A stretch of DNA of 60,833 bases from a virus. How positions within the stretch are numbered: the first letter of the stretch is position 1; each line of letters starts with the position of its first letter. The translations under genes were made by a program, and so were the position numbers. Where the stretch lies: IMG/VR virus record IMGVR_UViG_3300025096_003142, positions 1 to 60,833 of that record, one strand, 5' to 3'. A model generated the notes under the pieces. The model was given only the letters and a program-made list of their open reading frames with translations, was not told the DNA's origin and ran no database searches. Shown here one piece after another: positions 3,469-29,525 of this stretch.

Positions 3469-5100
<1,632 letters not shown>

Positions 5101-5543: not shown

Positions 5544-5834
5544 TTATTTTATTTCTTTATATATTATTTCATGAATTTTAACATTACAACATGAATCTTT
5601 TTGTATTTCTTGAAAAATGTAATACAATTGTTTATTTTCTTTTTCAATTAAAATATTTTTATTTGTTAATGTCCGGACTTCTGAGTCAAGTTCTATAACT
5701 CTATGAAACATTCCAATACATTCTTGTTCACATTTGTATTCTACCCAATGCCCTATTAATATAGTAGCCACACACACCACACATAATAGTGCCATTGTAA
5801 CTTTAAGTATTGTCCAACCTTTCTTTCTTGTCAT
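5544..5834 (-). CDS. single-span membrane protein with coiled coil, 96 aa
   Basis: Residues about 9-27 form one hydrophobic helix (ILKVTMALLCVVCVATILI), followed by a Cys-containing segment and a coiled-coil-like region (residues 40-75). The layout resembles an inner-membrane spanin-type or anchor protein, but no signature proves it. The start at 5834 overlaps the upstream gene by 32 nt; an in-frame ATG at 5795 would avoid the overlap but would cut into the membrane helix. Confidence 0.65.
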   Translation of the reverse strand: MTRKKGWTILKVTMALLCVVCVATILIGHWVEYKCEQECIGMFHRVIELDSEVRTLTNKNILIEKENKQLYYIFQEIQKDSCCNVKIHEIIYKEIK

Positions 5835-6045
5835 ATTCTATTTCTTCTATAACTTCTGCCTCTTCAATAGTCTGAACAAACATAATATGAGTCTCTGTTC
5901 TTAACACATGATCAACATGCATTATACCTGACACCCAATATCTAACTTTTTCTTTATTTATGTTGCCATTCTGATCTACGAAGTTATGAATTGGTTCTGA
6001 TCTTCGTAGATCATAATATTGGCCGTTATTCTTATATAAATTCAA
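5803..6045 (-). CDS. hypothetical protein, 80 aa
   Basis: An 80-residue protein with an aromatic N-terminus (MNLYKNNGQYYDLRR) and an acidic C-terminus. Its start overlaps the stop of the VWA protein gene by 4 nt (ATGA), so it is translationally coupled to it. No domain recognised. Confidence 0.7.
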   Translation of the reverse strand: MNLYKNNGQYYDLRRSEPIHNFVDQNGNINKEKVRYWVSGIMHVDHVLRTETHIMFVQTIEEAEVIEEIEYDKKERLDNT

Positions 6046-8024
6046 GATACATCCTCCATTTCTAAAAACTTTTCATTTAATGTCTTTGATACCTCTGTCA
6101 TATTCAATGGATTGATAAACTTTGCGCCTTCTCCATACATTGTGGTAAATGTTGCTTTACTCCAGCTAGATTCATATTCACATATAAAATAACTTAGTAT
6201 ATGAATACCTTGCTCTCTAAATCCATTGATGACTTTCTTAGTATAAATCTCTGGATCGTAATTAAAGTCTGCAACTCTGCTTGGTCCTCCGTCTGAGTAA
6301 TTAACAAATATACATTCGGCTCCCTTTGCGTCTTTTATTATATCTTGCTCGATGCTTTTAAAAGCTACTCCTTCTGGAGTGCAACCAAATGTGGTTAAGA
6401 ATTTAAAATATCTCTTAATATGAGACATCTTGTCATGAGCTGAATCATAAACATACATTGTTATGCAATTATCACTATGTCTACTACCTCCTATAGATGA
6501 TGTACCTCTTAAAGATATTTGTACTCGTATACCAGATGTCATTGATGCTGCTTGAGCTACTGCAACGGCTGATTTTAAAGCATTTACAAATCGATTACCA
6601 TTCATTGATCCTGATGCATCAATTGATATATGTATCATATAATCTTTATATTTGTCGGTAACTATTCGGTGAAATACATTAGTATTACCAAATCCTAACT
6701 GAGATAATAAACGTTTATCTATCTTACCAGTCTTAAGTCTTGTGGATTTCAATGTTCTATCAGTGTTTCTAACTTGTAACTTTCTGCCTAATTGTTTGCC
6801 TAATATAATTCCGCTGATTATCGCGCGTTGATGAAAATCATTTATTCTTTCAGATCTAAACTCATTTGCAGTTCCGTTTATATAGTCTATTGAACCATAT
6901 ATAAATAAATCATCCAAACTACAAATAACTTGATCATTAATTTTCTTTATAACGGTAGCTCGTGTCGATCTCATATCGCCACCATATTGACATTTATCTA
7001 TTTCAACTTCTCGGCTTTCGGTACCAGACTCTTCTAAGGCTTTAACTATTTTGCCTTGAGACTTTGACAATCGGCCGGTCTTTTTAGCATCACCTTCAAG
7101 AAATTCTTTCTGCTGACGGATTGCTTTGTCTAATAAATGCTTTTGTCTTTCAGACATTCCATTAACATCAGGAGTAGGTGTTTTTTCTTCATCATTTTCA
7201 TCGTTATTATCGCCTTCACCTCTTCCGGAACAATTAGAACGATCATCTTGATCTTCCTCACATTGATCATCTTGATCTGAGTCTTCTTTTTCCTCTGGTA
7301 AACCTTCTTTAATAACTTTATATACATCGCATGCCAATCTTCCAGCATCAATAGTAGTCTTAAGTCTACCAATATTTTTAAGATCAATTATGTTCCATAT
7401 TTTTCTTAAATTTTCTAATGAATCTAACTGTCTATTGATATTAGTAAAATTAATAATATGAAACATATAGTCATCCATAGTTTCAGATGTCTTGTTGCCT
7501 TCACGCAATGCTTTATCAATAACTCTGCTATTGAAATATTTATCATACATTGCTTGATAATATACTCTGTAGCCAGGAGCTTTTTTGTATATTAAAAGAT
7601 CAATTCTTCTGTCTTCAATCCAATTTAATAGACTTTTGACTTCATTAAATTCTTCATATGTCATCTCCATTAGCGGATCTAATCCTTGCATTCTAACAAA
7701 ACTTTCCCAATCAGATTGTCTAATTAAATCAAAGTCTGTGTATGCAATATGAGAGCCTTCATGTAATGCTAATCCAACTGCAGGATCAAAATTCTTATCT
7801 TCAATCTTAGTTCCTATTACAACAGACTTACCATCTGTGTAACTATCATATCCTTGAAATGTAACTGGAATTTGTTCGCCGGTAACTATATTAACAAAGT
7901 TACTGATTGCTCGTCTAGCGGATGCTAACTTAGTAAGGTCTACTTTAGAAGATCCTTCTCTTTTAGATAAGTCAAAGTCATTGCCTAACCAAAATGAAGA
8001 ACCATAATTACTTGTAAAATTCAT
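6042..8024 (-). CDS. CobT/DUF2201-like VWA protein with HExxH domain, 660 aa
   Basis: Partner of the AAA+ ATPase encoded just upstream. Residues 1-240 form a metallopeptidase-like domain with H88-E89-G-S-H92 (HExxH). Residues about 240-290 are a very acidic low-complexity linker. Residues about 460-650 form a von Willebrand factor A domain with the metal-binding MIDAS motif D469-A-S471-G-S473 and a later NYSDGG loop. This order matches proteins paired with MoxR/CobS ATPases (CobT of cobalt chelatase; the putative metallopeptidase plus VWA family). No cobalamin gene is nearby, so cobalt chelation is unlikely and a chaperone-like remodelling role is more probable. The HExxH may or may not be catalytic. 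Confidence 0.85.
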   Translation of the reverse strand: MNFTSNYGSSFWLGNDFDLSKREGSSKVDLTKLASARRAISNFVNIVTGEQIPVTFQGYDSYTDGKSVVIGTKIEDKNFDPAVGLALHEGSHIAYTDFDLIRQSDWESFVRMQGLDPLMEMTYEEFNEVKSLLNWIEDRRIDLLIYKKAPGYRVYYQAMYDKYFNSRVIDKALREGNKTSETMDDYMFHIINFTNINRQLDSLENLRKIWNIIDLKNIGRLKTTIDAGRLACDVYKVIKEGLPEEKEDSDQDDQCEEDQDDRSNCSGRGEGDNNDENDEEKTPTPDVNGMSERQKHLLDKAIRQQKEFLEGDAKKTGRLSKSQGKIVKALEESGTESREVEIDKCQYGGDMRSTRATVIKKINDQVICSLDDLFIYGSIDYINGTANEFRSERINDFHQRAIISGIILGKQLGRKLQVRNTDRTLKSTRLKTGKIDKRLLSQLGFGNTNVFHRIVTDKYKDYMIHISIDASGSMNGNRFVNALKSAVAVAQAASMTSGIRVQISLRGTSSIGGSRHSDNCITMYVYDSAHDKMSHIKRYFKFLTTFGCTPEGVAFKSIEQDIIKDAKGAECIFVNYSDGGPSRVADFNYDPEIYTKKVINGFREQGIHILSYFICEYESSWSKATFTTMYGEGAKFINPLNMTEVSKTLNEKFLEMEDVS

Positions 8025-8174: not shown

Positions 8175-9311
8175 TTATGCATTAACTTCTTCTTCTACAG
8201 TTTCTGCATTAAATATATCTTCTTCTTTTGAATCCATATGCTTTTGAATAATCTGCTTAACAAATACTCTTTCTGAGTCTGCACCTCCTGATCCATCAAA
8301 GAATGGAATAATTGCAACCTCTGATGCTTCTTGCAAAGTAAATCCATCTGCCAATAATTCACATATTCTAACTGTCATACGAGTAGACACCATAGTTGAC
8401 AACTTGCCTTCTTCCGATCTCCATTCCTTTCTGGTACAGTCTGCAATGTCTGCTACTGCTGCAATAAGATTTGCTTCAATCTTTTTGCCAAATCTTTTTT
8501 CTAATAATGAAGTCTCTTGCTCTAAAGAAAGAATATCAACTTCAATAATCTCAAAACGATCCATCAATGCTCTGTCTAATACTCTAGTACTAGTATACTC
8601 TGTACCAATATTAGCAGTTGCTATAAACGATACACCTTGAGCAACTTTAATAACGGGAGCATTAAGATCTTCATCTAATCTCAAGTAACGCTGTCCTTCA
8701 TCTAATACAGTCATTAATATATTCCATGCTTCTGGATGCGCTCTAGATAATTCATCTAATAATATTATTGCATTCTCTGTCTGGATAGCCTTGACGAATG
8801 CTGACTCATTGAACATTGTCTCATTGTTCTTAAAATGCGTGTTACCAATCAAAGTAGCTCTAGGATCTTGTGTGCTACCTAAGTTAAAATAAAAGAATGG
8901 ACGCTTAATTGCGTTAGGCAAACATTTTGCTGCTTGTGTCTTACCACAACCTGCTGGTCCAACCATCATAATATTTTTACCTCGAGCAACTGATCTAATT
9001 AAATACTTCCATTTAATATCAGATATCTCTAACTCGGTAGGCTTAATATTATTAGAATTTTTAATTAATTGAATAACTGGATCTGCATCTATTGCTGCAG
9101 TATCGACGGTTTGTTCAACAATGATATCCGTTGGGTTTATTCTAGATGCCCTACCAGTATCTTTATCAAACTTCAATGCTTGACCATTGTCAAATGCAAT
9201 GTCTATAATACTAGTTCTAAATAACTTTGTGATGTTTTTGTTTGATGATGCGTCTCTTACGATCAACCTTCCATTATTTTTGGTAATGGTACCAAATACT
9301 ATTTTTTTCAT
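8175..9311 (-). CDS. MoxR/CobS-like AAA+ ATPase, 378 aa
   Basis: ATP-driven remodelling enzyme. Residues 1-80 are an unrecognised beta-rich N-terminal region. The AAA+ core follows, with Walker A GPAGCGKT (about residue 118) and Walker B AIILLDELSRA, then sensor/arginine-finger segments including LMDRFE. CobS-like ATPases are common in T4-like marine phages, and in cells MoxR proteins work with VWA proteins. Here the VWA partner is the next gene. Promoter at 9333-9365; element 2 follows the stop. Its client is unknown. Confidence 0.88.
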   Translation of the reverse strand: MKKIVFGTITKNNGRLIVRDASSNKNITKLFRTSIIDIAFDNGQALKFDKDTGRASRINPTDIIVEQTVDTAAIDADPVIQLIKNSNNIKPTELEISDIKWKYLIRSVARGKNIMMVGPAGCGKTQAAKCLPNAIKRPFFYFNLGSTQDPRATLIGNTHFKNNETMFNESAFVKAIQTENAIILLDELSRAHPEAWNILMTVLDEGQRYLRLDEDLNAPVIKVAQGVSFIATANIGTEYTSTRVLDRALMDRFEIIEVDILSLEQETSLLEKRFGKKIEANLIAAVADIADCTRKEWRSEEGKLSTMVSTRMTVRICELLADGFTLQEASEVAIIPFFDGSGGADSERVFVKQIIQKHMDSKEEDIFNAETVEEEVNA

Positions 9312-9388: not shown

Positions 9389-9973
9389 TTAATCTTTAGC
9401 TTTTCTCCATTCACCAGTTCCTGGATCTTTAAATTGAAGATCTCCTCCTGTGACAACTCCTTTTCTTCCTCCTGATTGTATTTTACTCCCAGGAAAAAAT
9501 ACTTGTATTATAAAATTATCTACCATAAAATCCGGAGCTTGTTTTTTTCCTAATACAAAATAAACATAAGGATCTCCGCCGTCTCCATCGTCTGTTATTT
9601 TACCTCTAACAAGTTCGTTTGCTATAAGAGCTTTACCTGTAGAACTATCTACATCCACATATCCCATGTTTTTATCGTAATCGTTTGAAATTCCAAAATC
9701 TAGTGTTAATTCTTCATCGCGTTTAAATAATTTAGGTGATGTAGTATGTTTATATGTCGACAGTGCTCTTTTTTTGCTGATTTCTTTCATCGTTCCGCTA
9801 ATATGTTTTGTATTTGAGTCTGTTAACATATACCCTCTATCATTTTTAGATATTCGGCTTTTAATTACATCTCTAAAAACATAAAAGTCCACTAGATCTT
9901 CTGCTTGTGGTGCTTCATTTAGATTCTTGGTTCTGAATCTTCTCATGTTCTCTGCTAAAATATTTCGTTTCAT
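9389..9973 (-). CDS. putative internal virion protein with capsid-tag-like N-terminus, 194 aa
   Basis: The N-terminus MKRNILAENMRRF has the short basic/hydrophobic-then-Glu pattern (IL-A-E) of the tagged protein set in this window, which recalls the T4 capsid-targeting sequence cut after a Glu. The rest is a soluble mixed-fold protein with lysine- and glycine-rich loops and no recognised domain. It is the second gene after the 185-aa protein, 17 nt apart. Packaging in the head is inference. Confidence 0.65.
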   Translation of the reverse strand: MKRNILAENMRRFRTKNLNEAPQAEDLVDFYVFRDVIKSRISKNDRGYMLTDSNTKHISGTMKEISKKRALSTYKHTTSPKLFKRDEELTLDFGISNDYDKNMGYVDVDSSTGKALIANELVRGKITDDGDGGDPYVYFVLGKKQAPDFMVDNFIIQVFFPGSKIQSGGRKGVVTGGDLQFKDPGTGEWRKAKD

Positions 9974-9990: not shown

Positions 9991-10548
9991 TTATCGTCTA
10001 ATAGGATCTTTATCAGTTTGTATCGTACTCCCATTAAAGTTAAGTATGACTTTTAATAAACCGCCATCAATATTACTATTGACAACAATTTTTTCTTTCG
10101 TAAGTTTTTTTAATTTAAAATTTGATAGATCATCATCAAGACTAATGAATTCGTCTGGAGGAAATCGCATTTTAACACCGCTATCTAGTTTTGTCAATCC
10201 GTACTTATCGCTATGCTCATAATCAAAACCTGGTATCTTTTTATACATTCCACCTCTTGCACCTTCACCTTTTTGAAATATTTTTACAGACTTAACAACT
10301 AATGGGGGTGAATCAGGAAAATTAACGTTTGTTATAGTTAAATTAATGAATTCGTTTGCATCGAACATTACTTTTCTCATATCAACCTCTAGCACGTCAG
10401 ATGATGTAGCCATTGAGCCCATTGCAAGTTCTGTGCCGTTACCATCAGTTACTGATACAATTAGATCTGATGTATTAACATTTATATCTGCTAATGATTT
10501 TTCAGTTATGTTTGATTGTTCTATTAATAATTTTTTTAAACGTATCAT
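9991..10548 (-). CDS. putative internal virion protein with capsid-tag-like N-terminus, 185 aa
   Basis: It starts MIRLKKLLIEQSN, a clear match to the tag pattern M-I-x-L-K-x-(I/L)-L-x-E. The remaining 170 residues are beta-rich with no known domain. A TATTTATA box lies upstream at 10570-10577, consistent with late expression. Function unknown; delivery with DNA into the host is a hypothesis from the tag. Confidence 0.68.
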   Translation of the reverse strand: MIRLKKLLIEQSNITEKSLADINVNTSDLIVSVTDGNGTELAMGSMATSSDVLEVDMRKVMFDANEFINLTITNVNFPDSPPLVVKSVKIFQKGEGARGGMYKKIPGFDYEHSDKYGLTKLDSGVKMRFPPDEFISLDDDLSNFKLKKLTKEKIVVNSNIDGGLLKVILNFNGSTIQTDKDPIRR

Positions 10549-10587: not shown

Positions 10588-11163
10588 CTATTTAATTAGT
10601 GTAACATGGCCGTGAGCTCTATACTTGTCTGAAGAGTCTTGTAAATTAAACTTCATCATCCATATATATACTCCTTCTGCACATTGTTTGTTGTTATAGG
10701 TTCCGTCCCACCTAGCAGAAGCGTCATACGATTCCCATATTATATTGCCCCAACGATTAAACACAATCATATGAAAGTTATGAGGATCATAACCTGCAGT
10801 AAACACCGCTCCCCATATTTCATTATCTGCATCACCATCTGGAGTAAATGTATTAGGAACCCAATAAACTAAATCAGTACACTTAGTAACTGTTATAGTA
10901 TAATTAACTGGAGGACTAACACACCCACTATCATATCTAATTGCTTCTAAAATATATGTTCCGGAGTCTGACCATGTCAATGTTATTTCATTACCTGTAT
11001 ATGTTTCAGTAACTCCTGGTCCTGTTAATGTCCAATCTGTAGTTGTTCCTCCGCTATATGGTGCCCAATAAGAAAAGGTTTGAGTTTGTCCACATATATC
11101 TACTACTTGTTGAGCATAAGACCAACTAGAAATAAATAGTAATATGTATATGATCTTTTTCAT
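10588..11163 (-). CDS. secreted protein with T9SS type B (CHU_C/gliding) C-terminal domain, 191 aa
   Basis: Residues 1-17 are a Sec signal peptide (MKKIIYILLFISSWSYA-Q). Residues about 25-92 look like a PKD/Ig-like domain (GTYILEAIRYDSGCVSP). Residues about 98-190 match the gliding-motility-associated type B sorting domain: VPNTFTPDGDADNEIWG, the VFNRWGNIIWES block, WDGTYNNKQCAEGVYIW. Such domains direct cargo through the type IX secretion system to the Bacteroidota cell surface. The start overlaps the stop of the upstream gene (TAATG). A phage-coded T9SS cargo is unusual. The domain identification is strong; surface display is inferred. Confidence 0.85.
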   Translation of the reverse strand: MKKIIYILLFISSWSYAQQVVDICGQTQTFSYWAPYSGGTTTDWTLTGPGVTETYTGNEITLTWSDSGTYILEAIRYDSGCVSPPVNYTITVTKCTDLVYWVPNTFTPDGDADNEIWGAVFTAGYDPHNFHMIVFNRWGNIIWESYDASARWDGTYNNKQCAEGVYIWMMKFNLQDSSDKYRAHGHVTLIK

Positions 11164-11726
11164 TAGTTATGTTGTATTGGAGATAATACTGGTTGAGTAC
11201 TTACTCCTATGTTAATTGTTGCGACAAATGTACATCCTCCATTTGTATATGTATATGTTATTATGTGTGATCCGGAGCCGGCTACATTAGGACAAAAGTC
11301 ACTACCAACAACACCAACACCGGTGAAGACTCCTCCCGTAGGATTCGCTACCAATGGCACACACGGATCTGTTTCACAGAATGGGCCGATTGCTGTTATA
11401 GTTGGAGTTACATCATATATAAATACATCTAATAATGTTGGTATACTTTCACAACCATTAGCGTTTTGACCTGTAACTTCTACTGCATTTGGTATTAAAC
11501 CAGGCGCAGCTGCTGACCAATCAACATTGATTTGATTTGTTCCTTGGCCACCGGTGATAACTCCTGGTGCTGTAATAATCCAATTATAAATATATGCTGG
11601 GTTATTAGGTACTTGATAAATTGATCCAGGTGTTTGATAACAAACTGTATCTGGATTGATTGTTGTAAACTGAGCATACATTGTGTGTGCTGCTAAAAAT
11701 AAAATAAGTGTAACTAGTTTTTTCAT
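11163..11726 (-). CDS. secreted PKD-like protein, 187 aa
   Basis: Signal peptide at residues 1-18 (MKKLVTLILFLAAHTMYA). The mature protein is a PKD/Ig-like repeat region of the type found in front of gliding-type sorting domains in Bacteroidota adhesins (CYQTPGSIYQVPNN, WIITAPGVITGG, ENP-type GGVFTGVGV). It lacks its own sorting domain and ends SPIQHN, close to the ISHN end of the next protein. It is coupled by TAATG overlap to the type B domain protein and could work as a pair with it. Confidence 0.75.
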   Translation of the reverse strand: MKKLVTLILFLAAHTMYAQFTTINPDTVCYQTPGSIYQVPNNPAYIYNWIITAPGVITGGQGTNQINVDWSAAAPGLIPNAVEVTGQNANGCESIPTLLDVFIYDVTPTITAIGPFCETDPCVPLVANPTGGVFTGVGVVGSDFCPNVAGSGSHIITYTYTNGGCTFVATINIGVSTQPVLSPIQHN

Positions 11727-11738
11727 TTGATTGTTTTT

Positions 11739-12353
11739 TTAATTATGACTGATGACTCCTATGGGAGGCAACGTCGGGTTTATATTTCCATTATATATGT
11801 TAAAAGGATTAAGAGTGCAAGATATATTTGAGAAACTTCCCCAAGTACCATCTCCTCCTGCTGTGACTTGTATTGTTAAATCTAATGGATTGCATGTAGT
11901 AACTACTGTAACGTCGAAACAAAATGACCATTGACAATTTGTGCCAAAGTCGCCCCAATCATCTCCTGCATCATTATTCCAGAAGAATGGATCTCCATAT
12001 TCATAAAACCAACCAGGGCCAGCAACTAGTCCGGAGTTTGTAGAGGTTGTTGTTAATTGCCATATCCACTGTCCTAATGCTGCTGTTTCATTACAATCTC
12101 CAGGAGGTGCACCTGGTGTTAAATTTGTCCAACCTGGGCCTAATGTTATTGAAAACCCTTCTATCCACTCTGCGGCTACGGCTGGATTAAAATTCCATCC
12201 GTCCATTGTATAACAAACATTAACAACAGTACCAGGAGTATATCCAGTTGCTGGTGGCGGTGGTGTTAATGTAAATGATTGAATGCCATTACAAGGTTGC
12301 GAGTATAATACTCCATATGTAAATAACAATATTGTAAATAAAAATGTTTTCAT
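11739..12353 (-). CDS. secreted beta-rich protein, 204 aa
   Basis: Signal peptide MKTFLFTILLFTYGVLYS followed by Q-P-C. The mature part is rich in Trp, Gly, Pro and Thr with at least seven cysteines, suggesting an extracellular beta-sandwich stabilised by disulfides. It ends PPIGVISHN, sharing the P-x-I...HN end with the 187-aa protein. First gene of the secreted trio 12353-10588, with a TATTTATA box at 12364-12371. Ligand unknown. Confidence 0.72.
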   Translation of the reverse strand: MKTFLFTILLFTYGVLYSQPCNGIQSFTLTPPPPATGYTPGTVVNVCYTMDGWNFNPAVAAEWIEGFSITLGPGWTNLTPGAPPGDCNETAALGQWIWQLTTTSTNSGLVAGPGWFYEYGDPFFWNNDAGDDWGDFGTNCQWSFCFDVTVVTTCNPLDLTIQVTAGGDGTWGSFSNISCTLNPFNIYNGNINPTLPPIGVISHN

Positions 12354-12363
12354 ATAACTTTAT

Positions 12364-12371
12364 TATAAATA
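12364..12371 (-). promoter_or_regulatory. candidate late-promoter box TATTTATA
   Basis: TATTTATA in gene sense 11 nt before the start of the 204-aa secreted protein. It directly follows the U tract of element 3. Confidence 0.4.
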
Positions 12372-12381
12372 TAACTTATTT

Positions 12382-12480
12382 AAAAAGGCCTTGTTTTAGT
12401 AGTCGGAGGCTTCAACTCCCATATGGCTTTACACCTGCGTCCCGGATTGGGATAGCATTCGTTCCTACCAAGCAAGGCCT
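12382..12480 (-). terminator. terminator-like element with large structured insert (element 3)
   Basis: On the minus strand an 8-bp outer stem (AGGCCTTG at 12480-12473 with CAAGGCCT at 12393-12386) is followed by U5. The 79-nt insert, which is more GC-rich than its surroundings, can form small hairpins: GGTAG...CTA(T)CC, CCC...GGG and GGAG...CTCC. The outer stem begins inside the stop codon region of the membrane-protein gene. A tRNA fold does not fit. It may be a terminator carrying a small regulatory RNA. Confidence 0.55.
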
Positions 12481-12967
12481 AGTTATCATTTAATTCTTTT
12501 TGTATTAATTTTCTATTAAAATCTATATTCCATTTTAAATATAATAAATGCGTATGAAATGCACATAGTGTACATACACAAACTATTTCTATATATAAAA
12601 ATCCAAATGGAGCTAAAAATAAAGAACAAGAATATGGAACTAAATATAACTTGAGTCTAGTGTTATAATATAAAGGATGCATACAAGCTATAAAGAATCC
12701 ATATGCAAATATATTATGTATAACTGGATAATCTGTTACCGAAAATGCTGTTAATAATAAAAGGAGTATAGATGGAAGTTTCCATCTGTCTAACGAAAAT
12801 AGAAAGTATGCAATGGCTGCGTTTGAGGTTATTAAGAGAGGTTTTAAAGGAGTATTCCAATATTGTGATATAGATTCCAATGGGCCTTCATAACTTATAC
12901 AAATGAACGGAAAGATTAATGCTAAGGTAATTACTAATATTCTTAATACATAATCTTTTTTATTCAT
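12479..12967 (-). CDS. polytopic membrane protein, 162 aa
   Basis: About five hydrophobic helices can be seen (residues about 8-25, 42-58, 64-80, 86-104, 112-137), with a basic C-terminal tail. No family recognised. It follows a lipoprotein gene and is followed by element 3. Among phage genes, membrane proteins beside a lipoprotein may act in exclusion or lysis; neither is shown here. Confidence 0.72.
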   Translation of the reverse strand: MNKKDYVLRILVITLALIFPFICISYEGPLESISQYWNTPLKPLLITSNAAIAYFLFSLDRWKLPSILLLLLTAFSVTDYPVIHNIFAYGFFIACMHPLYYNTRLKLYLVPYSCSLFLAPFGFLYIEIVCVCTLCAFHTHLLYLKWNIDFNRKLIQKELNDN

Positions 12968-12986
12968 TTATTAATTCACAAACTTA

Positions 12987-13181
12987 TTATTCAACAATAT
13001 ACACAAACCAATTCGGATCTTCATATGAACATAAACACTGATCAGGAAAACAAATATGATCTCCTTCTATAAAAATAGAATCTACTTGAATTTGACTACA
13101 ATTATGTCCTTCTGGAGTAATTGATTTAGATGTCTTACATCCTACTAAAACTAATAAAAGTGCTAAAACTAATATTCGCAT
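12987..13181 (-). CDS. small lipoprotein, 64 aa
   Basis: Residues 1-15 form a lipoprotein signal with the lipobox L-V-G-C15, followed by K-T-S-K. The mature part of 49 residues contains four more cysteines (NCSQ, HICFPDQCLC), suggesting disulfides. Promoter at 13188-13221. Length and layout are compatible with a superinfection-exclusion lipoprotein or an outer-membrane spanin subunit; the Cys-rich mature part favours an exported folded domain over a spanin. Confidence 0.72.
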   Translation of the reverse strand: MRILVLALLLVLVGCKTSKSITPEGHNCSQIQVDSIFIEGDHICFPDQCLCSYEDPNWFVYIVE

Positions 13182-13187
13182 TTTTTA

Positions 13188-13221
13188 TTTTAATAATAAG
13201 AAAAATATATCTAAAAACCAA
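13188..13221 (-). promoter_or_regulatory. candidate promoter TTGGTT-N17-TATTAT
   Basis: Minus-strand TTGGTT (13221-13216), 17 nt, TATTAT, then the lipoprotein start at 13181. A TATTTATA box lies 10 nt further upstream (13239-13232), so both promoter types may serve this gene. Confidence 0.55.
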
Positions 13222-13247
13222 TTCAATTTAATATAAATATTGATAAC

Positions 13248-13436
13248 TTATATTTCATTTGGATCGAATAATTTATTATAATCTTCTATTTTTATCGCTA
13301 TTCGAATGTCGTCTATTGTCGCAAAGACTTCTTCTTGAAATATTTGAACTTCTTTTAGTTTTTTTGGATCTATTTCAACAAGGCCAGTTGATGAAGTCTC
13401 GTTTGCAAATCTAACAGGTATTTTTGTTTTTGGCAT
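13248..13436 (-). CDS. hypothetical protein, 62 aa
   Basis: A 62-residue acidic protein beginning MPKTKIPVRFANETSSTG, with no signal peptide. It starts 1 nt after the stop of the 622-aa secreted protein, so it is probably translated by re-initiation. No family recognised. Confidence 0.68.
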   Translation of the reverse strand: MPKTKIPVRFANETSSTGLVEIDPKKLKEVQIFQEEVFATIDDIRIAIKIEDYNKLFDPNEI

Positions 13437-13437
13437 T

Positions 13438-15306
13438 TTATTTGTTTATAGTTCTTAACATTGTTCCATCTTCATAAACTTCAATCACAACACCTTTTGC
13501 ATCAGGTCCTACATCCCTACCCATCATATCAATACGCCTAACGATTTTAGATATTCTGTTTCTATTATCAATCATCACAGGGCCATATATTTCATTAGCT
13601 CCATCGACATCATATTGAAGTAGTCTATAATAATTAAATGCATTTGATAAGGGACCATGGTCTACCCATTTATAATCTTGTTTAGTTGTTGAATTACCAG
13701 CTGATGGTATTTGTCCTATAGATCTATATTCAGATCCATCAACACTTATTTGTATTTCAAAATATGAGCTGTTTTGTTCTGTTGCGGTCGACCACTCTAT
13801 CATATTTCCTAATTCTGGGATATATTGTCCACTCATATAAAGCATTGTAACTGGTAGGGCAGATTGCCTTGTCATTTGTGCATCTCTACATACTGATTCT
13901 ATTCCACATAAATCATTTGTATTGATATGGAGGTGGTATGTTTGGTTAGCACTTGTTGGAGTAAAGTAGATAGGTGTTGTTCCTACCACCTCAACAGGAC
14001 CATCATATGTATCTCTTCTTAGAGTAATCCAATCAGTTGGATTTGAAGACTCGATTGTATATGTTGTTCCAATCTCCCCACCAGTCCATGTTGTATATTC
14101 ACCCGCATATTGGCAGCTGATTGTCTTAGTTGAGGTGGTTTGGGTTGGCATTGTAGTTGTGGTATAATAAGATGTGTTTGTACATGGACCTGGAATAACA
14201 ATAGGTGGCGTGCAAGTTACTTCTAAATCAAATGCATTAGTTGAGCTGTAACTGTGTACTAATATATAATATACTTCTCCAATTACTGATGTCCATGAGT
14301 ATGAAGCGGCTGTACCACTACAAGCAGGTCCGTTGTCATCTATACCACCAATACAAGTTAAATTAGTACACGTTCCACTAAATACTGATATTTTACTATC
14401 CCATGATGTGTTACATAATGATGCTACAAAATCATCTCCATTACCTCCAATTCTATACCAAACACCTGGTTGGCCTTGTGCGGTTCCGCAAGTAGCTAAT
14501 CCATCTGTAGTTGCATTAACAGTTGTCCCTTGTGTAGTTGAATTACATGCTATACTCTCAGCACTACAAGCATCATCATTTGCTGGTGGTGTTGGAGGTG
14601 GTGGTACATTACATATCATATTAACAGCTACCGATTCATCTACTACATTCGCTCCTCCAGACGCTACTTGAGTTCCATTAACATCAACTGTCCAAGATAC
14701 TTCAGATGGATAACTTCCTCCGGTTACTGATATTGTATAGCACCCATCTGCTAAACAAAAATCTGCAGTACCACTCGCACCGCTAGCTAATGTTCCAGTA
14801 CCAACTTGGGCACCTTGATCATCTGCAATAGTAAATTGAGCACCATTCCAGCCATCTCCATAAGAATCTATCATATTAACAACAACTTCATTGAGAATAC
14901 AACCTGGGCCTGGGACTGTACATGACACACTTCTTGTCATACAACCTCCAGCATTACCACATGCAGAGCCGGTATGTGTATAAAATCTAACAGTGCCATC
15001 ATATGTTGCTACCCATGTTTGATCTCCAGTACCATATACTAATGCTACATTTGAAGAATTAGCAATTGTTATATAATCCGTACTAATTGAACTTCTGAAT
15101 GTATAGCTATTTCCAGTAGTGACTGATACAACTGAATATTCTCCTCTATATCCACAAGTTGTGATAGATCCGAATCCCGAACCACAGCTTGGTGTATATG
15201 TGCTACTTGGGTATTGTCCGTAACTAGCACTAGTGCATTGTGATTTAACAAAATTAGTTAATCCAATGACAACTAAAAATAATAGCAATAACTTAATTTT
15301 CTTCAT
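13438..15306 (-). CDS. large secreted adhesin-like protein with T9SS type A-like C-terminus, 622 aa
   Basis: Signal peptide at residues 1-22. Two similar Cys-paired domains of the form Y-x-GEY...STDYITI...CMTRSV occur near residues 25-128 and 375-480. Between them lie a DSYGDGWNGAQF domain and a domain starting ANDDACSAESI. Residues about 485-580 match the fibronectin-like region that precedes sorting domains (IEWSTATEQNSSYFEI, YYRLLQYDVDG). The last 40 residues (IVRRIDMMGRDVGPDAKG, VIEVYEDGT) resemble the T9SS type A sorting end. It probably appears on the host surface. The fold and sorting call are good; the role (adhesion, decoy, blocking re-infection) is open. Confidence 0.8.
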   Translation of the reverse strand: MKKIKLLLLFLVVIGLTNFVKSQCTSASYGQYPSSTYTPSCGSGFGSITTCGYRGEYSVVSVTTGNSYTFRSSISTDYITIANSSNVALVYGTGDQTWVATYDGTVRFYTHTGSACGNAGGCMTRSVSCTVPGPGCILNEVVVNMIDSYGDGWNGAQFTIADDQGAQVGTGTLASGASGTADFCLADGCYTISVTGGSYPSEVSWTVDVNGTQVASGGANVVDESVAVNMICNVPPPPTPPANDDACSAESIACNSTTQGTTVNATTDGLATCGTAQGQPGVWYRIGGNGDDFVASLCNTSWDSKISVFSGTCTNLTCIGGIDDNGPACSGTAASYSWTSVIGEVYYILVHSYSSTNAFDLEVTCTPPIVIPGPCTNTSYYTTTTMPTQTTSTKTISCQYAGEYTTWTGGEIGTTYTIESSNPTDWITLRRDTYDGPVEVVGTTPIYFTPTSANQTYHLHINTNDLCGIESVCRDAQMTRQSALPVTMLYMSGQYIPELGNMIEWSTATEQNSSYFEIQISVDGSEYRSIGQIPSAGNSTTKQDYKWVDHGPLSNAFNYYRLLQYDVDGANEIYGPVMIDNRNRISKIVRRIDMMGRDVGPDAKGVVIEVYEDGTMLRTINK

Positions 15307-15805: not shown

Positions 15806-16573
15806 TTATAACTCCTGCCTAATGGCTAATTGCGGAAGATAAGACCTCCATATCTTTAAAACTTTTTGTTTCTCTTTTTCTGTTATAGTACCATTAGCAA
15901 TCCAATCATCTAAATATTCATTTACTACTTCTGCAAATGGCAGTTTAGATTTCTTTGCTTTAAAATATAATCCTTGTATCATTGCTGGTATCTCTTTTTT
16001 AAGAACAAAATAATTCCATGCTGGTTTTTTGCCTGTGGCTATTCGGTTTCTCATGGCTTGATCACCTCGCAAATATTTTGTTTCTTTTTCATTCCAACCA
16101 CTTTGGGTTGTGTGTTCTAATTCGTGACGTAATATGTCTTTTAAATGCATTGAGATAGTAGATAAATTACTAGGATAGTCTTCTGGATCTATTTCTAATC
16201 TAACTTCTATCATAGGTGGGGTGGTAGCATTATGCTTTCTTTCGTTTTCATTGAATGCATCGCCTCCATATCTAAATTCACCTAAATCTTCTACCCATTG
16301 AATTTTTAAACTCAAATAACAATCTATAGGAATAGTTTCATTTTCTACTTCTTCAAAATATGTATATGGATATGATTTGTCATTTTTATTAATAGGATCA
16401 ATTGGAGGAACATGCTCTCCTTTCTTAAAATAAATTTTATCACCTGCAAATAATCCACGTGGATCTTGTGTTGCAACAAATGAGTCTTTAACAGTTTGTA
16501 GTAGTTTATTTGATAGTTCTCTTGTTAAACTATCATAACGACCTTCTACTATTAATTTACTCAATGATATCAT
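15806..16573 (-). CDS. tagged HExxH metalloprotease-like protein, 255 aa (start reassigned)
   Basis: The frame opens at 16588, but the ATG at 16573 gives an ATGA overlap with the upstream stop and the tag-type N-terminus MISLSKLIVEGRYDSLTREL. Zinc-protease motif H150-E151-L-E-H154 lies in LRHELEHTTQ; a third ligand is not certain. I recall similar tagged proteins in marine myophages. Expected role: a protease carried in the head and delivered to the host, or one acting on head proteins. It follows the ADP-ribosyltransferase-like gene, forming a pair of tagged enzyme candidates. Confidence 0.75.
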   Translation of the reverse strand: MISLSKLIVEGRYDSLTRELSNKLLQTVKDSFVATQDPRGLFAGDKIYFKKGEHVPPIDPINKNDKSYPYTYFEEVENETIPIDCYLSLKIQWVEDLGEFRYGGDAFNENERKHNATTPPMIEVRLEIDPEDYPSNLSTISMHLKDILRHELEHTTQSGWNEKETKYLRGDQAMRNRIATGKKPAWNYFVLKKEIPAMIQGLYFKAKKSKLPFAEVVNEYLDDWIANGTITEKEKQKVLKIWRSYLPQLAIRQEL

Positions 16574-17598
16574 TTTTGAAGTCTCCAATTTGTTATAGCA
16601 TTTTTATTTAATGGTAATATTTCATATCCTCCAACTGTTCCTTTTCCAATAATAGCATCAAATCCATCATCTGCATATTGTTGTAATGAACCCACATTGA
16701 TAAAATCCATAGTAAAATTAGCATTTCTTGCGTCTAAGACTACCGATCCTGGTTTTATTTCAAAACTATAAAAATACTTTCTTGATCCTCCTTTTCCTGG
16801 GCCATAAAAGCCAGGCATACTTCGATGAGTAGTATATAAGCCTCCTGGACCATAATCTGGACCAAGTGCTGCTTTCTTTGATGATTTACCAGGTCGCATA
16901 AGTTTGTCTACAGGTATAGCATCTTTTAAAACTAAATCGTCTACATTTAACATTTTAGGACTACCATGTTGTAGTGGTAATTCTTTTGTAAGTTTAGAGA
17001 CAGTCATTCCTGTATGATATCCTTTAAATGCATCAAAAAATTGTTGTCTGTTTATTTTACCTAAAATTAAATCGTCAAGATGTCTTTGTAAATTTTTTGA
17101 CTTAGGTAATTGTTTAACTACATCTAGAAAATCGTTGAATTTTTTAATTCGGCTTTGTATTAATGGTTTATTTTTTACTATGTTAGCTAGTGTTTTTAAT
17201 TGTTGTGTGGTTAATTTTGTCCCGGTCGATATTGCAACTGTTATTTTGTCAACAGCTGTTTTTGTTAATCGCTTAATACCTGGTATCTCGCCGATCATCG
17301 GAAGACCTGCAAATACACCGGTAATAGCTGCATTAACATAATCTCCTTTTTCATAATATAAACGAGCTGCGTTTAATTCTAAAGCTACTGTGGTTGGTAT
17401 TCTTATTCTAGGATCTTTTATAGCTAGTGAAGTAATCATTCCTGCTACTTCATAGAATTGAGGACTTGTAAATAATTGTTTAATAAAAGCACGTTGAGCT
17501 GCATTATATGCTTTTGCTCCTTCAGGAGTACTATATTGTTTATCCAAGAATCTTGTATAAGCAGTTTGTTCTGATAATATTTGCTTTAATGATATCAT
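16570..17598 (-). CDS. tagged ADP-ribosyltransferase-like (polyvalent-type) protein, 342 aa
   Basis: Tag-type N-terminus MISLKQILSEQTAY. Residues about 50-120 form a helical region with a GLPMIGEIPG stretch. The C-terminal 125 residues follow the pattern of ART-fold toxin domains: LQHGSPKML, then GGLYTTHRSMPGFYG, then YSFEIKPGSVVLDA, then DAIIGKG and GYEILPLNKNAI, compatible with an H-Y-E type active site. T4 packages the ART enzyme Alt with a similar short N-terminal tag, so this could be an analogue that modifies host proteins on injection. The ART call is from motif order only. Confidence 0.62.
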   Translation of the reverse strand: MISLKQILSEQTAYTRFLDKQYSTPEGAKAYNAAQRAFIKQLFTSPQFYEVAGMITSLAIKDPRIRIPTTVALELNAARLYYEKGDYVNAAITGVFAGLPMIGEIPGIKRLTKTAVDKITVAISTGTKLTTQQLKTLANIVKNKPLIQSRIKKFNDFLDVVKQLPKSKNLQRHLDDLILGKINRQQFFDAFKGYHTGMTVSKLTKELPLQHGSPKMLNVDDLVLKDAIPVDKLMRPGKSSKKAALGPDYGPGGLYTTHRSMPGFYGPGKGGSRKYFYSFEIKPGSVVLDARNANFTMDFINVGSLQQYADDGFDAIIGKGTVGGYEILPLNKNAITNWRLQK

Positions 17599-24959: not shown

Positions 24960-25712
24960 TTAATTGATTATGAGTTTTTGTCCTGGTCGTAAAATTGAAT
25001 CTTGAGAAATTTTATTTGCTTTAGCAATAGTTTTAATAGTTATTCCTACTGGTTGTTTTGCTGCTATAGAAGATAATGTATCACCAGACTGTACTATGTA
25101 TATATTATTATCTGTTGTAGATTTCTTTTCTGGAGTATCAATATCGCCATCTAGATATTTTTTAAATTTTAATGCATTATTAATTCGTTTTTTTAAACTG
25201 CCTGGTTGTGGAGTAAAAACATTAATCATTAAATTTTTAGTAGTTTTTGCAATATCTCCAGTAAGACTATTTTTATATTGTTTTACATAAAAATTTGATT
25301 GTCCTTTATAGCTACCATCTGGATGTTGGTATAGATATAACCTTTTCTTTTTTATTCCTGGAATATATTTTCCTTTCCATGTATATCCGTCCAATAATTC
25401 AAATTTAATAAAATCTAATTGTGTAGTTAAACCGCTAAAAGATTGTTTAGTATGTGTTGCAAATGCATGTAATGCTTGTAAACGGCCGGCTCCAGGATCC
25501 CATTGACATAATCCATATGCACCAGTACCGCCTTTTTGCTTCCGTTTCGGGTCGCATGCGGATTCGTGTGCTATATTACCTATTAAACAAATAGCTCCAT
25601 GTTTTTTAAAACCTCGGGCAATTAATCCATTATATATTTTTTCACCTCTTTCTAGTTCGCCATCTTCTGAAAAATCATTTTCTTTTAATAATATATTTTT
25701 AAGTTTTATCAT
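24960..25712 (-). CDS. tagged tail-lysozyme-like protein with LysM, 250 aa
   Basis: Tag-type N-terminus MIKLKNILLKENDF. Residues about 22-150 match phage tail-lysozyme domains (GLIARGFKKHGAICLIGNIAHES with candidate acid E50, GAYGLCQWDPGAGRLQAL). Residues 203-250 form a LysM peptidoglycan-binding motif (YIVQSGDTLSSIA, LRPGQKLIIN). It should cut the glycan strands of the wall, probably locally during DNA entry since the tag implies head or injection association. The start overlaps a 16-aa micro-ORF stop. Confidence 0.85.
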   Translation of the reverse strand: MIKLKNILLKENDFSEDGELERGEKIYNGLIARGFKKHGAICLIGNIAHESACDPKRKQKGGTGAYGLCQWDPGAGRLQALHAFATHTKQSFSGLTTQLDFIKFELLDGYTWKGKYIPGIKKKRLYLYQHPDGSYKGQSNFYVKQYKNSLTGDIAKTTKNLMINVFTPQPGSLKKRINNALKFKKYLDGDIDTPEKKSTTDNNIYIVQSGDTLSSIAAKQPVGITIKTIAKANKISQDSILRPGQKLIIN

Positions 25713-25759: not shown

Positions 25760-25850
25760 TTTTTCTTTTTATCATCAAGCTCCGGATGATAACCTAAATA
25801 TACTTTTTTGACATCTCTAGTAGTAATTGTTTAAGTTTAAACTGGCTCAT
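25756..25850 (-). CDS. tagged micro-protein, possibly made by -1 frameshift (about 31 aa)
   Basis: An ATG at 25850 overlaps the end of the 87-aa gene and reads MSQFKLKQLLLEMSKKYI then stops at 25794. The N-terminus is of the tag type (FKLKQLLLE). The codons TCA-AAA-AAG form an A-AAA-AAG slippery heptamer in the correct phase. A -1 shift continues as VYLGYHPELDDKKKK to a TGA at 25758-25756 that overlaps the next ATG. The -1 frame has no start codon of its own. A single-base sequence or assembly error in the A6 run is the main alternative. Confidence 0.4.
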
Positions 25851-26100
25851 ATCCACCCTCCTCATCATCTGTATCATCAAGTTGTAATCCTGGATCTGAG
25901 TCTATATCATCATCAAAATCATATGTATCAGGCTCAGCTACTCCATCTGCAGTACCAGGATGTTCATGATGATGTCCCCAAAAGTCTTTTACATCTTCAG
26001 GAGCATCTTTTGATAATTCCATTGGTTTAACTGATAATATATCTTTTATTGTTGTAGGTAAACTACCATCAGCTAATAATATGTCTTTTAATTTAATCAT
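25837..26100 (-). CDS. tagged acidic protein, 87 aa
   Basis: It starts MIKLKDILLADGSL, the tag pattern with Asp in place of the usual Glu. The rest is strongly acidic (DVKDFWGHHHEHPG, then Asp/Glu-rich to the C-terminus) with a His cluster near residue 45. It could be a head-core or DNA-mimic protein. It overlaps the 131-aa gene by 4 nt (ATGA). Confidence 0.68.
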   Translation of the reverse strand: MIKLKDILLADGSLPTTIKDILSVKPMELSKDAPEDVKDFWGHHHEHPGTADGVAEPDTYDFDDDIDSDPGLQLDDTDDEEGGYEPV

Positions 26101-26492
26101 TTATTTAAATGTATCGCTGCTAATTGTTGTAGTGCAGCTTTTTTTGTTGAATGAGTTCCTAATAGGTCTCCATTACCTTTAGGATATACAACCCATTTAT
26201 TATCTACTTTTTTAATTCTTTCATTCATAGCCTTTTTTAATTGGCTTTTTAAATCTGAAGGATGAAATTGCAGGTCCTTTTGGTCGTGCATGTTATGTGT
26301 TAAATAGTCTTTGACTTTATTCATATAATCTGACGCGAGGGTGATTTTGGCTTCAATCCATTCAGGCAAATCCATGTCTGGTGTAATCATGTCAGCTACA
26401 TCTGCTGCATCTTGTGCACATTCAATGGCGCCATGTTTTGCCATCTTACCTTCGTGTTTTTCTCCACAACCACAATCTTCCTGCAATTTCAT
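26097..26492 (-). CDS. conserved phage protein with CGC motif, 131 aa
   Basis: It starts MKLQEDCGCGEKHEG. A middle helical region contains DLPEWIEAKITLASDYM, followed by a C-terminal module WVVYPKGNGDLLGTHSTKKAALQQLAAIHLNK-type of about 32 residues. From memory, both the DLPEWxxxKIT segment and the THS..KA..QLAAIH end recur in many phage head-associated proteins. It is probably linked to the head or prohead core. The CGC motif may bind metal. Confidence 0.72.
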   Translation of the reverse strand: MKLQEDCGCGEKHEGKMAKHGAIECAQDAADVADMITPDMDLPEWIEAKITLASDYMNKVKDYLTHNMHDQKDLQFHPSDLKSQLKKAMNERIKKVDNKWVVYPKGNGDLLGTHSTKKAALQQLAAIHLNK

Positions 26493-26793: not shown

Positions 26794-27060
26794 TTATTCG
26801 CCTAAATCTAAGTCAGCTGTCCAGGCTTCTGTTTGGAGAATAGCCCTCATCTGCTTGTTCGTACAGGTTTGTACAGGCGATACTGACCCATTTGCGATAA
26901 AACCAGGCCATGTTTGTGAAATTGTAATATCCCACTTAATAAAAGTTAAACTATTATCTAATGAATATGTTAAGGTATCTGCAGAAGTTTCTAATACTTG
27001 ATCAAAATTCACATTTGATACATCGTTTGCGTTAATAATTGCATATGTTCTAATACTCAT
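26794..27060 (-). CDS. LamG-partner small protein, copy 1, 88 aa
   Basis: One of three paralogues: (Y)AIINANDVSNVNFDQVLETSADTL, SLDNSLTFIKW, and a C-terminal (T)xxQ(M/I)xxIL segment ending near W. It directly follows the LamG protein gene at 27072 with an 11-nt gap. The repeated pairing suggests an adaptor, chaperone or fibre-tip subunit for the LamG protein. Biochemical role unknown. Confidence 0.72.
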   Translation of the reverse strand: MSIRTYAIINANDVSNVNFDQVLETSADTLTYSLDNSLTFIKWDITISQTWPGFIANGSVSPVQTCTNKQMRAILQTEAWTADLDLGE

Positions 27061-27071
27061 TTTATTATCCT

Positions 27072-27800
27072 TTAATTTGGTACATCTGCAATATACGCGG
27101 CGCCATTTGTTAATGTCCCATCATTACTATTACCACTGCTATCTCCAGCAGTTGTTCCACTTCCTTCTTCAAATCTCCACCAACCAACTGGTGAATAACT
27201 TGCAAGTGATTTTGGTACGCCTCCATTATAAATTGCAGTAACATCACTTGCTGAAAGAACAGAGGTAAAAATGCCTGTTTCATCTATTTGTCCATCCATA
27301 ACATATTGGCCATCTGCATTTCTTCCTATTTGTACGGTTTTTCCTACATCATTCATTGTTGCAGGTATAGATGTAGTGTTTTCTGTTTCCAAGTTTCCAT
27401 CTACATACAGCCTAACTGCTGTTGACGGCTCAAAAACACCTACTACGTGATGCCAATTCCCATCATTATAATCTGTTGTTCCTATTGCTGAAAAGGTTGA
27501 TGAGCCATTTCTAATACCAAAGATTATAACATTAGTTCCACCATATCTGTTACCCCACATCGTCCAAGACCTGTCGTTTATTGAATGACCATGTGCATTG
27601 TCTTTACAGATTAAAACATAATCTGTAGAATCTGTACTTTTAAACCAAAGAGAAACAGATAAAGAAGTTGTTATTTGCAACTCTGTTGGATTTCCTAAAT
27701 CTATATAATCATTTACTCCATCTAAATCAATAGAATAGGTATTTGAAAATGATGATGCACCACTCAATCCAAATATACCTAATTTAGTTCCTATACCCAT
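27072..27800 (-). CDS. LamG/concanavalin-A-like adhesin, 242 aa
   Basis: Starts MGIGTKLGIFGLSGASSF, followed by one LamG jelly-roll domain over residues about 22-230: LDGVNDYIDLG, SVSLWFKS, WHHVVGVF, VRLYVDGNLE, IDETGIF, WWRFEEGSGT. Such domains bind glycans. It shares its first 14 residues with the LamG protein at 28061. Likely a virion receptor-binding protein. Confidence 0.8.
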   Translation of the reverse strand: MGIGTKLGIFGLSGASSFSNTYSIDLDGVNDYIDLGNPTELQITTSLSVSLWFKSTDSTDYVLICKDNAHGHSINDRSWTMWGNRYGGTNVIIFGIRNGSSTFSAIGTTDYNDGNWHHVVGVFEPSTAVRLYVDGNLETENTTSIPATMNDVGKTVQIGRNADGQYVMDGQIDETGIFTSVLSASDVTAIYNGGVPKSLASYSPVGWWRFEEGSGTTAGDSSGNSNDGTLTNGAAYIADVPN

Positions 27801-27802
27801 TA

Positions 27803-28048
27803 TTACTCCTCAATTAACCATTCATTTGTTTTTAAAATTGATAATATTTGTTGATGAGTATATATGCCTACCGGATCTACTAGTTCGTTTACATATATGA
27901 ATGCTGGAGGTGAAAGCCATTTGATAAGAATTAAACTAGTATCTAATGAATATTTTAATGTATTAACAGACGTTTCTAATATTTGATCAAAATCTATATT
28001 TGATACATCACTTGCATTAATAATTGCATATGTTTTATTGTTATACAT
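27803..28048 (-). CDS. LamG-partner small protein, copy 2, 81 aa
   Basis: Paralogue of the 88-aa and 77-aa proteins: TYAIINASDVSNIDFDQILE, SLDTSLILIKW, then GIYTHQQILSIL. It lies between two LamG genes with gaps of 2 and 12 nt. Confidence 0.72.
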   Translation of the reverse strand: MYNNKTYAIINASDVSNIDFDQILETSVNTLKYSLDTSLILIKWLSPPAFIYVNELVDPVGIYTHQQILSILKTNEWLIEE

Positions 28049-28060
28049 AGTTTACCTTTA

Positions 28061-28804
28061 TTATGGAACATCTTCTACAATATCCCCAGAAGCCATATTA
28101 GTCATAGTTAAATCATATGAACCTACATTATCTGTTAATGTTGGATATGTATCACCATCTCCCATTCTCCACCAATGAATTAAATTAGATTCACCAGTTA
28201 AATCGGTAGGAACTCCAGAATTATAATATGCCAAGACTTCTCCTGCAGTTAATTCAGCACTAAAAATAGATACTTCATCTATATTACCATTAAATTCATA
28301 AAAGGTATAATCAGTTTGTTTTCCAACAGTTAATGCAGAAGCAGGATCTGGTTGCATAGCCGTTGGACCGGAGTATGTTGTTTGAAGATATTGAGTACCA
28401 TCTAAATAAAATATCACCCTTTGTTTACCAGTATTGCTAGCATTATAAGTCACAGCACCATGATACCATGTATCTGTGTTTATTGTAATACTAGTATTTC
28501 TGTATGCAATATTATTTTTACAGTATATATCAACTCTAGTGCTACTAGGAATAATGTCGACTCGAAAATTTCTATCCGCACCTGATCCCCATTGTGATAC
28601 CAATCCACGTTGACTTGTAGTTGCTTGTGTTTTAAACCAAAACATAACAGAAACTTGTGTTGCTCCATCAAAAGATTCAAAAGTCCCAGCTCCTTCACAA
28701 TAATCATCAGACCCATCTAAAACTATAGATTTTTCATTTGTAAATGAAGATACAACAGTTGCGCCACTTTGTGCAAATATTCCTAATTTAGTTCCTATCC
28801 CCAT
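28061..28804 (-). CDS. LamG/concanavalin-A-like adhesin, 247 aa
   Basis: The N-terminus MGIGTKLGIFAQSGA is nearly the same as the paralogue at 27072. LamG domain elements: LDGSDDYCEG, SVMFWFKT, WYHGAVTY, VIFYLDGTQ, IDEVSIF, HWWRMGDGD. Single domain of the same size as its paralogues; the loops differ, as expected for variants with different ligands. Confidence 0.8.
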   Translation of the reverse strand: MGIGTKLGIFAQSGATVVSSFTNEKSIVLDGSDDYCEGAGTFESFDGATQVSVMFWFKTQATTSQRGLVSQWGSGADRNFRVDIIPSSTRVDIYCKNNIAYRNTSITINTDTWYHGAVTYNASNTGKQRVIFYLDGTQYLQTTYSGPTAMQPDPASALTVGKQTDYTFYEFNGNIDEVSIFSAELTAGEVLAYYNSGVPTDLTGESNLIHWWRMGDGDTYPTLTDNVGSYDLTMTNMASGDIVEDVP

Positions 28805-28808
28805 GGTG

Positions 28809-29231: not shown

Positions 29232-29261
29232 ATCTTTTCCCTATCCAAGATTATGTTATGT

Positions 29262-29495
29262 TTATTCTTCTTCTGATGTCCAAGTTGGTGTGGACATTAA
29301 TTCTAATATTTCAGCATGTGTATAAATCCCAATAGGGATAATAGTTTCATCCTCAATAAAGGTTGGTTCATTATTCCATTTCAAAACAAATTGGGTTAAA
29401 TCAATACTTTTTCTGATTGTGTCTGGTGAAGTTTCTCCAACTTGAGTAAAATCTACTTTAGGAAGGTCGTCTATGCTTATTGTTGAATATATCAT
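29262..29495 (-). CDS. LamG-partner small protein, copy 3, 77 aa
   Basis: Paralogue of the 81- and 88-aa proteins: DLPKVDFTQVGETSPDTIRKSID, VLKW, GIYTHAEILELM, ending TWTSEEE. TATTTATA box upstream at 29510-29517. Here it follows a run of three LamG genes. Confidence 0.72.
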   Translation of the reverse strand: MIYSTISIDDLPKVDFTQVGETSPDTIRKSIDLTQFVLKWNNEPTFIEDETIIPIGIYTHAEILELMSTPTWTSEEE

Positions 29496-29517: not shown

Positions 29518-29525
29518 TATGGATG

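Follow-up and report, generated by a model that had tools for sequence, protein, structure and literature searches.

The type B cassette and its distribution

The IMG/VR virus contig IMGVR_UViG_3300025096_003142 (60,833 bp; hereafter the window, meaning the whole stretch of DNA analysed) carries three tandem genes for secreted proteins of 204, 187 and 191 amino acids (aa), the last of which ends in a sorting domain of the type IX secretion system (T9SS). We describe this 204-187-191 cassette, the short C-terminal tail that two of its products share and the surface complex that it may encode. Nearly all genes of the record lie on the minus strand, as does the cassette, which is flanked on both sides by phage genes. 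Gene calls are simple open reading frames (ORFs), and signal peptides were read by eye from the sequence. The features of the cassette are as follows.

10588–11163, minus strand: 191-aa type B cargo with a signal peptide, an immunoglobulin (Ig)-like domain and a type B sorting domain; the proposed carrier (TIGR04131, PF13585, 31-sequence alignment)
10603–10860, minus strand: type B sorting domain (CHU_C), at the very C-terminal end of the 191-aa protein (PF13585, 58.1 bits in a profile search of genomes)
11163–11726, minus strand: secreted Ig/PKD-like protein of 187 aa with two domains, neither of them a sorting domain (PKD_6, 36.1 bits, cut-off 25)
11163–11177, minus strand: I-Q-H-N-stop, the tail that ends the 187-aa protein (kept in 72 of 76 distinct split homologues)
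11739–12353, minus strand: 204-aa secreted protein with neither a sorting domain nor a known family (23-sequence alignment)
11739–11753, minus strand: I-S-H-N-stop, the tail that ends the 204-aa protein (kept in 72 of 73 distinct homologues)

Residues 102–190 of the 191-aa protein match TIGR04131 with 46.8 bits (cut-off 35) and residues 102–187 match PF13585 (CHU_C) with 55.9 bits (cut-off 27); a chance match is excluded for this domain. The hydrophobic N terminus reads MKKIIYILLFISSWSYAQ followed by Q. This Q behind the signal peptide is kept without exception (31/31) among the aligned relatives, as are the motifs PN.FTP, RWG, W.G and GxYxW and three cysteines. A Q at the cleavage point is present in all members of the three cassette families (25/25, 31/31 and 23/23), a property of Bacteroidetes signal peptidase I substrates known as the Q-rule (PMC5837995). 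A sequence-only reading of the window had predicted a Sec signal peptide and a type B sorting domain in this protein, and both are borne out, the former by the Q-rule (by eye) and the latter by scores over two curated cut-offs. Its wider proposal, that the phage encodes cargo for the T9SS of its host, is supported at the sequence level by the viral origin of the contig, the phage genes on both sides, the two cut-offs passed, the recurrence of the cassette described below and the obeyed Q-rule. PHROGs holds no family for the 191-, 187- or 204-aa proteins or for a 622-aa protein encoded nearby, and a PDB sequence search returned no relative.

The two further secreted proteins expected at this site are also present, as the 187- and 204-aa products. 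Neither gives a type A or type B C-terminal domain match at E ≤ 1. The start of the 191 gene overlaps the stop of the 187 gene (TAATG), and the 187-aa protein is 47% identical to residues 401–558 of a 732-aa fused type B protein of phage LR745206. The notion of four separate cargoes must be revised, as three of them (204-187-191) form one cassette, fused in other phages, in which only the 191-aa protein bears a sorting domain.

Single-sequence scans of viral contigs with the 191- and 622-aa proteins gave no match, a result attributable to low sensitivity because a profile of type B proteins then found 409 viral stretches, the best 80 of which were kept for locus comparison. A 187 homologue adjoins the type B domain in 79 of these 80 loci and a 204 homologue is present in 45, and the cassette is conserved on dozens of IMG/VR contigs of up to 436 kb. 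TIGR04131 exceeded its cut-off in 13/13 large viral contigs tested, as expected for contigs that were fetched through that domain. Among the metagenomic loci, some nearly duplicate one another or share a contig, and counts refer to distinct C-terminal sequences or to loci, as stated. Where the sequence around a 187 homologue was long enough to judge (73 loci), a 191 homologue follows in 72; at the remaining locus, L402, the type B gene is divergent and lies about 600 nt further on, so that none of the 73 lacks a downstream type B gene. A 187 homologue likewise follows at all 70 testable loci that are anchored on a 204 homologue. The L402 operon (L402:1075–4710) also encodes two tailed proteins, of 199 and 186 aa, which flank one of 402 aa whose end is type A-like, and two small membrane proteins. 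The exact 187/191 junction pattern occurs on 63 viral contigs; one of these, L268, was rejected as a carrier, being a chance pattern match in a non-metagenome record that has no cassette. The 135 relatives of the 187 family in bacterial genome contigs (nearly all Bacteroidota) are only distant PKD-like proteins, the best matching at 47% over 94 aa, and with no ORF ending in [ILVMF]xHN the presence of the cassette in bacteria was rejected.

The C-terminal tail and the fused forms

The 187- and 204-aa proteins end in I-x-H-N-COOH, a tail kept in 72/76 distinct 187 and 72/73 distinct 204 homologues, with HD or HY in the exceptions. The I, H and N codons vary synonymously, which points to selection on the peptide, and x varies freely in the 204 slot. 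The same ending is found on unrelated proteins of the same operons (314, 322, 349/353, 425/428, 455, 474 and 489 aa); at L270 and L406 the unrelated tailed protein is placed after the type B gene, indicating that the tail is independent of gene order. At two loci both tails have changed together, to HY at L310 and to HD at L440.

In the split form, 204, 187 and 191 are tandem genes, each with its own signal peptide. The fused form, exemplified by the 634-kb phage LR745206, is a single polypeptide of 650–820 aa whose last parts align to 187 and 191 in that order, and it lacks the tail. Moreover, the ending [ILVMF]xHN does not occur in any of the 2,090 ORFs from 79 bacterial loci. The linkage to the type B gene, the occurrence on unrelated proteins and the absence from fused and bacterial ORFs indicate that the tail marks the partners of a type B gene. 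Split and fused forms are not simple alternatives, because both are found, at separate sites, on each of the contigs G005 (L215) and G011 (L214).

Other explanations of the ending were rejected. An intein or Hint-type HN ending, which calls for a Hint domain and a Cys, Ser or Thr after HN, does not fit a stop after HN in every case counted, the lack of a Hint domain and the assignment of 187 to PKD_6 with two beta domains. A by-product of the overlapping start codon does not fit the tail of the non-overlapping 204 slot or the synonymous codon variation. I-x-H-N-stop is also not a general tail of huge phages, as it shows no enrichment over the reversed pattern in three phages of 634–642 kb.

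The AlphaFold (AF2) model of the 187-aa protein contains two confident beta domains (predicted local distance difference test (pLDDT) 88.8) that resemble tandem Ig/cadherin domains, and in this monomer model the tail is extended and non-strand. For the fused 187-191 segment of L111 (pLDDT 90), the closest solved folds are those of GhpA, the Aureispira grappling-hook protein.

A putative surface complex and its alternatives

In cultured Flavobacterium johnsoniae, type B cargo depends on PorP/SprF shuttles, one of which can also serve orphan type B cargo (PMC12618676). The PorP/SprF model TIGR03519, a single profile applied partly to fragments, matched 0 of 17 phage records, versus 4–15 copies per Bacteroidota genome. 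In view of this absence, the phage carrier would have to use, and may deplete, a shuttle of the host.

The observed domains, the conservation of cassette and tail, the fused equivalents and the lack of a shuttle gene in the records searched point to a phage-made, T9SS-exported surface complex that would consist of one type B carrier and tail-tagged partners, a reading to which we assign a probability of roughly 0.6. Each subunit would enter the periplasm by Sec and signal peptidase I, as its Q-rule signal peptide suggests. The type B domain of the 191-aa carrier would engage the host T9SS translocon and a host shuttle, and the 187- and 204-aa proteins would join the carrier through their I-x-H-N tails and be exported or displayed with it; we infer docking by the tail from the split and fused architectures, the obligate linkage and the tail itself. 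Assembly might take place in the periplasm or on the cell surface, and the displayed product would be a stalk of tandem Ig domains that most resembles an adhesin. More generally, we tentatively propose that the tail, in the form [G/P/S]-x-I-x-H-N, may be a transferable tag by which proteins lacking a sorting domain assemble onto a type B carrier and piggyback on T9SS export, although we would not call this probable.

Several points weigh against the surface complex. No cultured phage in INPHARED has the cassette, and all data are metagenomic; the shuttle result has the narrow basis given above. On a quick unrooted tree the split and fused forms fall into two blocks separated by about one or two changes, so that their comparison does not represent many independent events. 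At L343 and L416 only the 187 tail is altered (to HD) and the 204 tail is still HN, and the two tails therefore need not share one receptor. The tail provides no detectable donor strand, and the linker that matches it in the fused model forms no more than two isolated beta-bridges. The monomer and fused models neither support nor contradict strand donation of the kind seen in type V pili and similar surface fibres, in which the tail becomes a strand of the neighbouring domain. Secretion, complex formation and function are, moreover, deductions rather than experimental results.

The separate changes at L343 and L416 also fit the idea that the I-x-H-N tail is itself a short sorting signal, for the T9SS or another outer-membrane route, and that the 187- and 204-aa proteins are exported independently of the 191-aa protein. 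Its strictly C-terminal position, like that of T9SS signals, and its presence on unrelated proteins agree with this as well. However, a type B gene lies downstream at every testable 187 locus and the tail is lost once the modules fuse to a type B domain. A general Bacteroidota signal is further opposed by the lack of excess over the reversed control in three phages and by its absence from the 2,090 bacterial ORFs, and we consider an autonomous signal unlikely. The type B protein could instead act mainly as a decoy, its excess titrating host PorP/SprF shuttles or the translocon, stripping T9SS-displayed phage receptors and gliding adhesins from the surface and excluding superinfection by jamming. 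The phages lack a shuttle and their hosts have several, overproduced type B fusions remain unsecreted without an extra shuttle (PMC12618676), and proteins of 116–126 aa from L011 (LR756502) and L012 (LR745206), which consist almost entirely of a signal peptide and a bare type B domain, are possible T9SS decoys. Pure jamming, however, needs no conserved tailed partners, type A-like protein or tandem-Ig stalks, and as the main role of the cassette it appears decidedly unlikely.

It is very improbable that the cassette proteins are parts or decorations of the virion rather than of the host surface. Their genes lie among late, structural-type genes, T4-like capsid-targeting N-termini (by eye) flank them and Ig-like domains are frequent on phage virions, but Sec signal peptides with the host Q-rule residue occur throughout the three families, and such a sorting domain serves only export to the host surface. 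A larger, though still minor, chance goes to a cassette that alters host adhesion or gliding for the benefit of the phage (by spread, aggregation or attachment), unrelated to competing phages. Known type B substrates are adhesins, some of which ride the gliding machinery (PMC12618676, PMC9143113), and the fused relative folds like GhpA stalk segments. However, no domain that binds a known ligand was recognized in the 191-, 187- or 204-aa proteins, and the benefit to a lytic phage is unclear. For the surface complex, the likeliest use, which is speculative, would be to mask, occupy or compete with T9SS-displayed host proteins, some of them phage receptors; a changed adsorption of other phages, or changed cell attachment, might speculatively follow. 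Phage adsorption has been linked to gliding and T9SS surface proteins, and resistance to mutations in gliding-motility proteins (PMC13288928), which makes the masking or replacement of T9SS-displayed receptors plausible, with adhesion an equal rival.

Neighbouring genes and relation to known systems

Beyond the cassette lie a large secreted protein and three small genes.

13438–15306, minus strand: 622-aa secreted multidomain protein; the same slot in other phages holds proteins with type A ends
13438–13863, minus strand: C-terminal module of the 622-aa protein, an fn3-like block plus a short tail, KIVRRIDMMGRDV...GVVIEVYEDGTMLRTINK
13248–13436, minus strand: 62-aa cytosolic ORF adjoining the 622-aa gene
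12987–13181, minus strand: 64-aa lipoprotein-like ORF with lipobox LVGC, from sequence; membership uncertain
12479–12967, minus strand: 162-aa multi-span membrane protein between the 622-aa gene and 204-187-191 (Frag1 match below cut-off); membership uncertain

The sequence-only reading had ascribed to the 622-aa protein a signal peptide, a fibronectin-like region and a type A-like end, and had proposed a search with sorting-domain models. The signal peptide was upheld, but neither fn3 nor type A models (TIGR04183, PF18962) matched the protein even at E ≤ 1; the search thus succeeded for the type B models on the 191-aa protein and failed for the type A models on the 622-aa protein. No type A sorting-domain match was found anywhere in the 60,833-bp record. 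Relatives in the same slot, 53–60% identical over residues 238–365, end in Por_Secre_tail (L107 and L084, both over cut-off), and the L107 end scores 27.1 bits with PF18962 (cut-off 27) and 24.5–25 bits with TIGR04183 in a whole-record scan (cut-off 23). Other phage relatives in this slot (L068, L081, L086) end in the same short tail as the 622-aa protein. The last 141 residues recur in 10 of the 13 Bacteroidota genomes searched; Bacteroidota copies of the module run into canonical YPNP type A ends, and a copy in L218 has the module followed by the same short tail (NTLGQVVSPEYDGLRLIYYSDGKVIKKIGR). We regard the 622-aa protein as putatively type A-like, not as a tested type A member, and it would probably be a separate cargo of the same neighbourhood. 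Several phages have the order type A cargo, 204-slot protein, 187, 191, and the window keeps the order type A-like cargo, 204, 187, 191, with three small genes inserted. A homologue of the 62-aa ORF adjoins the 622 homologue in several fused-form phages. The small lipoprotein ORF (12987–13181) and a small membrane-anchored coiled-coil-like ORF at 5544–5834 (both minus) could be a spanin pair.

The record is classed as linear and lacks end repeats, and is for these reasons probably a fragment. Besides LamG-type and tail-spike-type proteins, the window encodes a GroEL of phage type, a MoxR-like/vWA-like pair that was named from its sequence and a nucleotidyltransferase-like protein with relatives in Lak phages, huge phages and cyanophages; its most fitting interpretation is a segment of a large T4-like phage that infects Bacteroidota. 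Genes for the vWA-like and MoxR-like ATPases (6042–8024 and 8175–9311) and for GroEL (3469–5097), all minus, lie near the cassette, and such neighbours recur at about nine other cassette loci. A T4-like capsid-targeting N terminus, M..LK.LL.E (by eye), is present in the products of 9389–9973, 9991–10548, 15806–16588 and 16570–17598, and again in those of 24960–25712, 25837–26100 and 26097–26492 (all minus). The motif suggests that the proteins around the cassette may be internal capsid or injected proteins; one of the set, of 260 aa, has an HExxH-like motif (HELEH). Similar N termini adjoin the cassette at other loci. Tandem LamG-like proteins are encoded at 26794–31617 (minus), five of them of 226–247 aa interspersed with mutually related proteins of 77–88 aa, which may be a duplicated set of virion or adhesion genes. 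A long sugar-gene cluster occupies 39912–60643 (minus) and includes, mostly by names from sequence reading, glycosyltransferases, NeuB/NeuA-like proteins, a UDP-GlcNAc 2-epimerase-like protein, a KdsC-like phosphatase and a two-gene transketolase-like pair.

Phages that encode T9SS cargo have been described before (PMC7468147, for type A; PMC6949934). Cryophage likewise carries genes with T9SS sorting domains, for which a hijack of host export was proposed and competition or superinfection exclusion suggested (PMC7468147). Those are three type A genes (endoglucanase, GH39 and PA14) in variable islands of one phage, whereas the present operon is conserved across many contigs and combines a type B carrier with tailed partners. 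The crAss-BACON contigs are also from Bacteroidota phages and have T9SS-domain ORFs near BACON ORFs; the parts of that report consulted describe no type B cassette or C-terminal tail (PMC6949934). The huge phages LR745206, LR756502 and LR756504 (Mahaphage clade, 634–642 kb), with predicted Bacteroidetes hosts, have type B and/or type A domains (PMC7162821, the main text of which nowhere uses the word 'secretion'); their type B/type A-range matches number 4/3, 3/1 and 0/2, respectively, some below cut-off. Unlike the split cassette of the window, these phages carry fused or unrelated cargo. Porphyromonas gingivalis phages have, as here, signal peptides adapted to Bacteroidota signal peptidase I, but no T9SS domain was reported in their Q-rule proteins (PMC10367356). 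Among bacterial substrates, SprB, PG1035 and Fjoh_3952 (PMC12618676, PMC9143113) resemble the 191-aa protein in combining a Sec signal peptide and a type B C-terminal domain with Ig-like or repetitive stalks. By contrast, the phage carrier is small and its partners are separately encoded, and the phage genes are not beside a PorP/SprF gene, as bacterial type B genes usually are. In the literature searched, with subscription papers and preprints mostly outside its scope, we found no description of a type B phage cassette or of such a tail.

Few phages are known to exploit a dedicated host secretion system for building on the outside of the cell. The tail would offer a handle on whether the T9SS carries partners that have no sorting domain, a question to which the literature searched gave no clear answer. 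A cassette conserved across many large Bacteroidota phages is directly testable in Flavobacterium, and it could explain the effects of phages on receptors and gliding in aquatic Bacteroidota.

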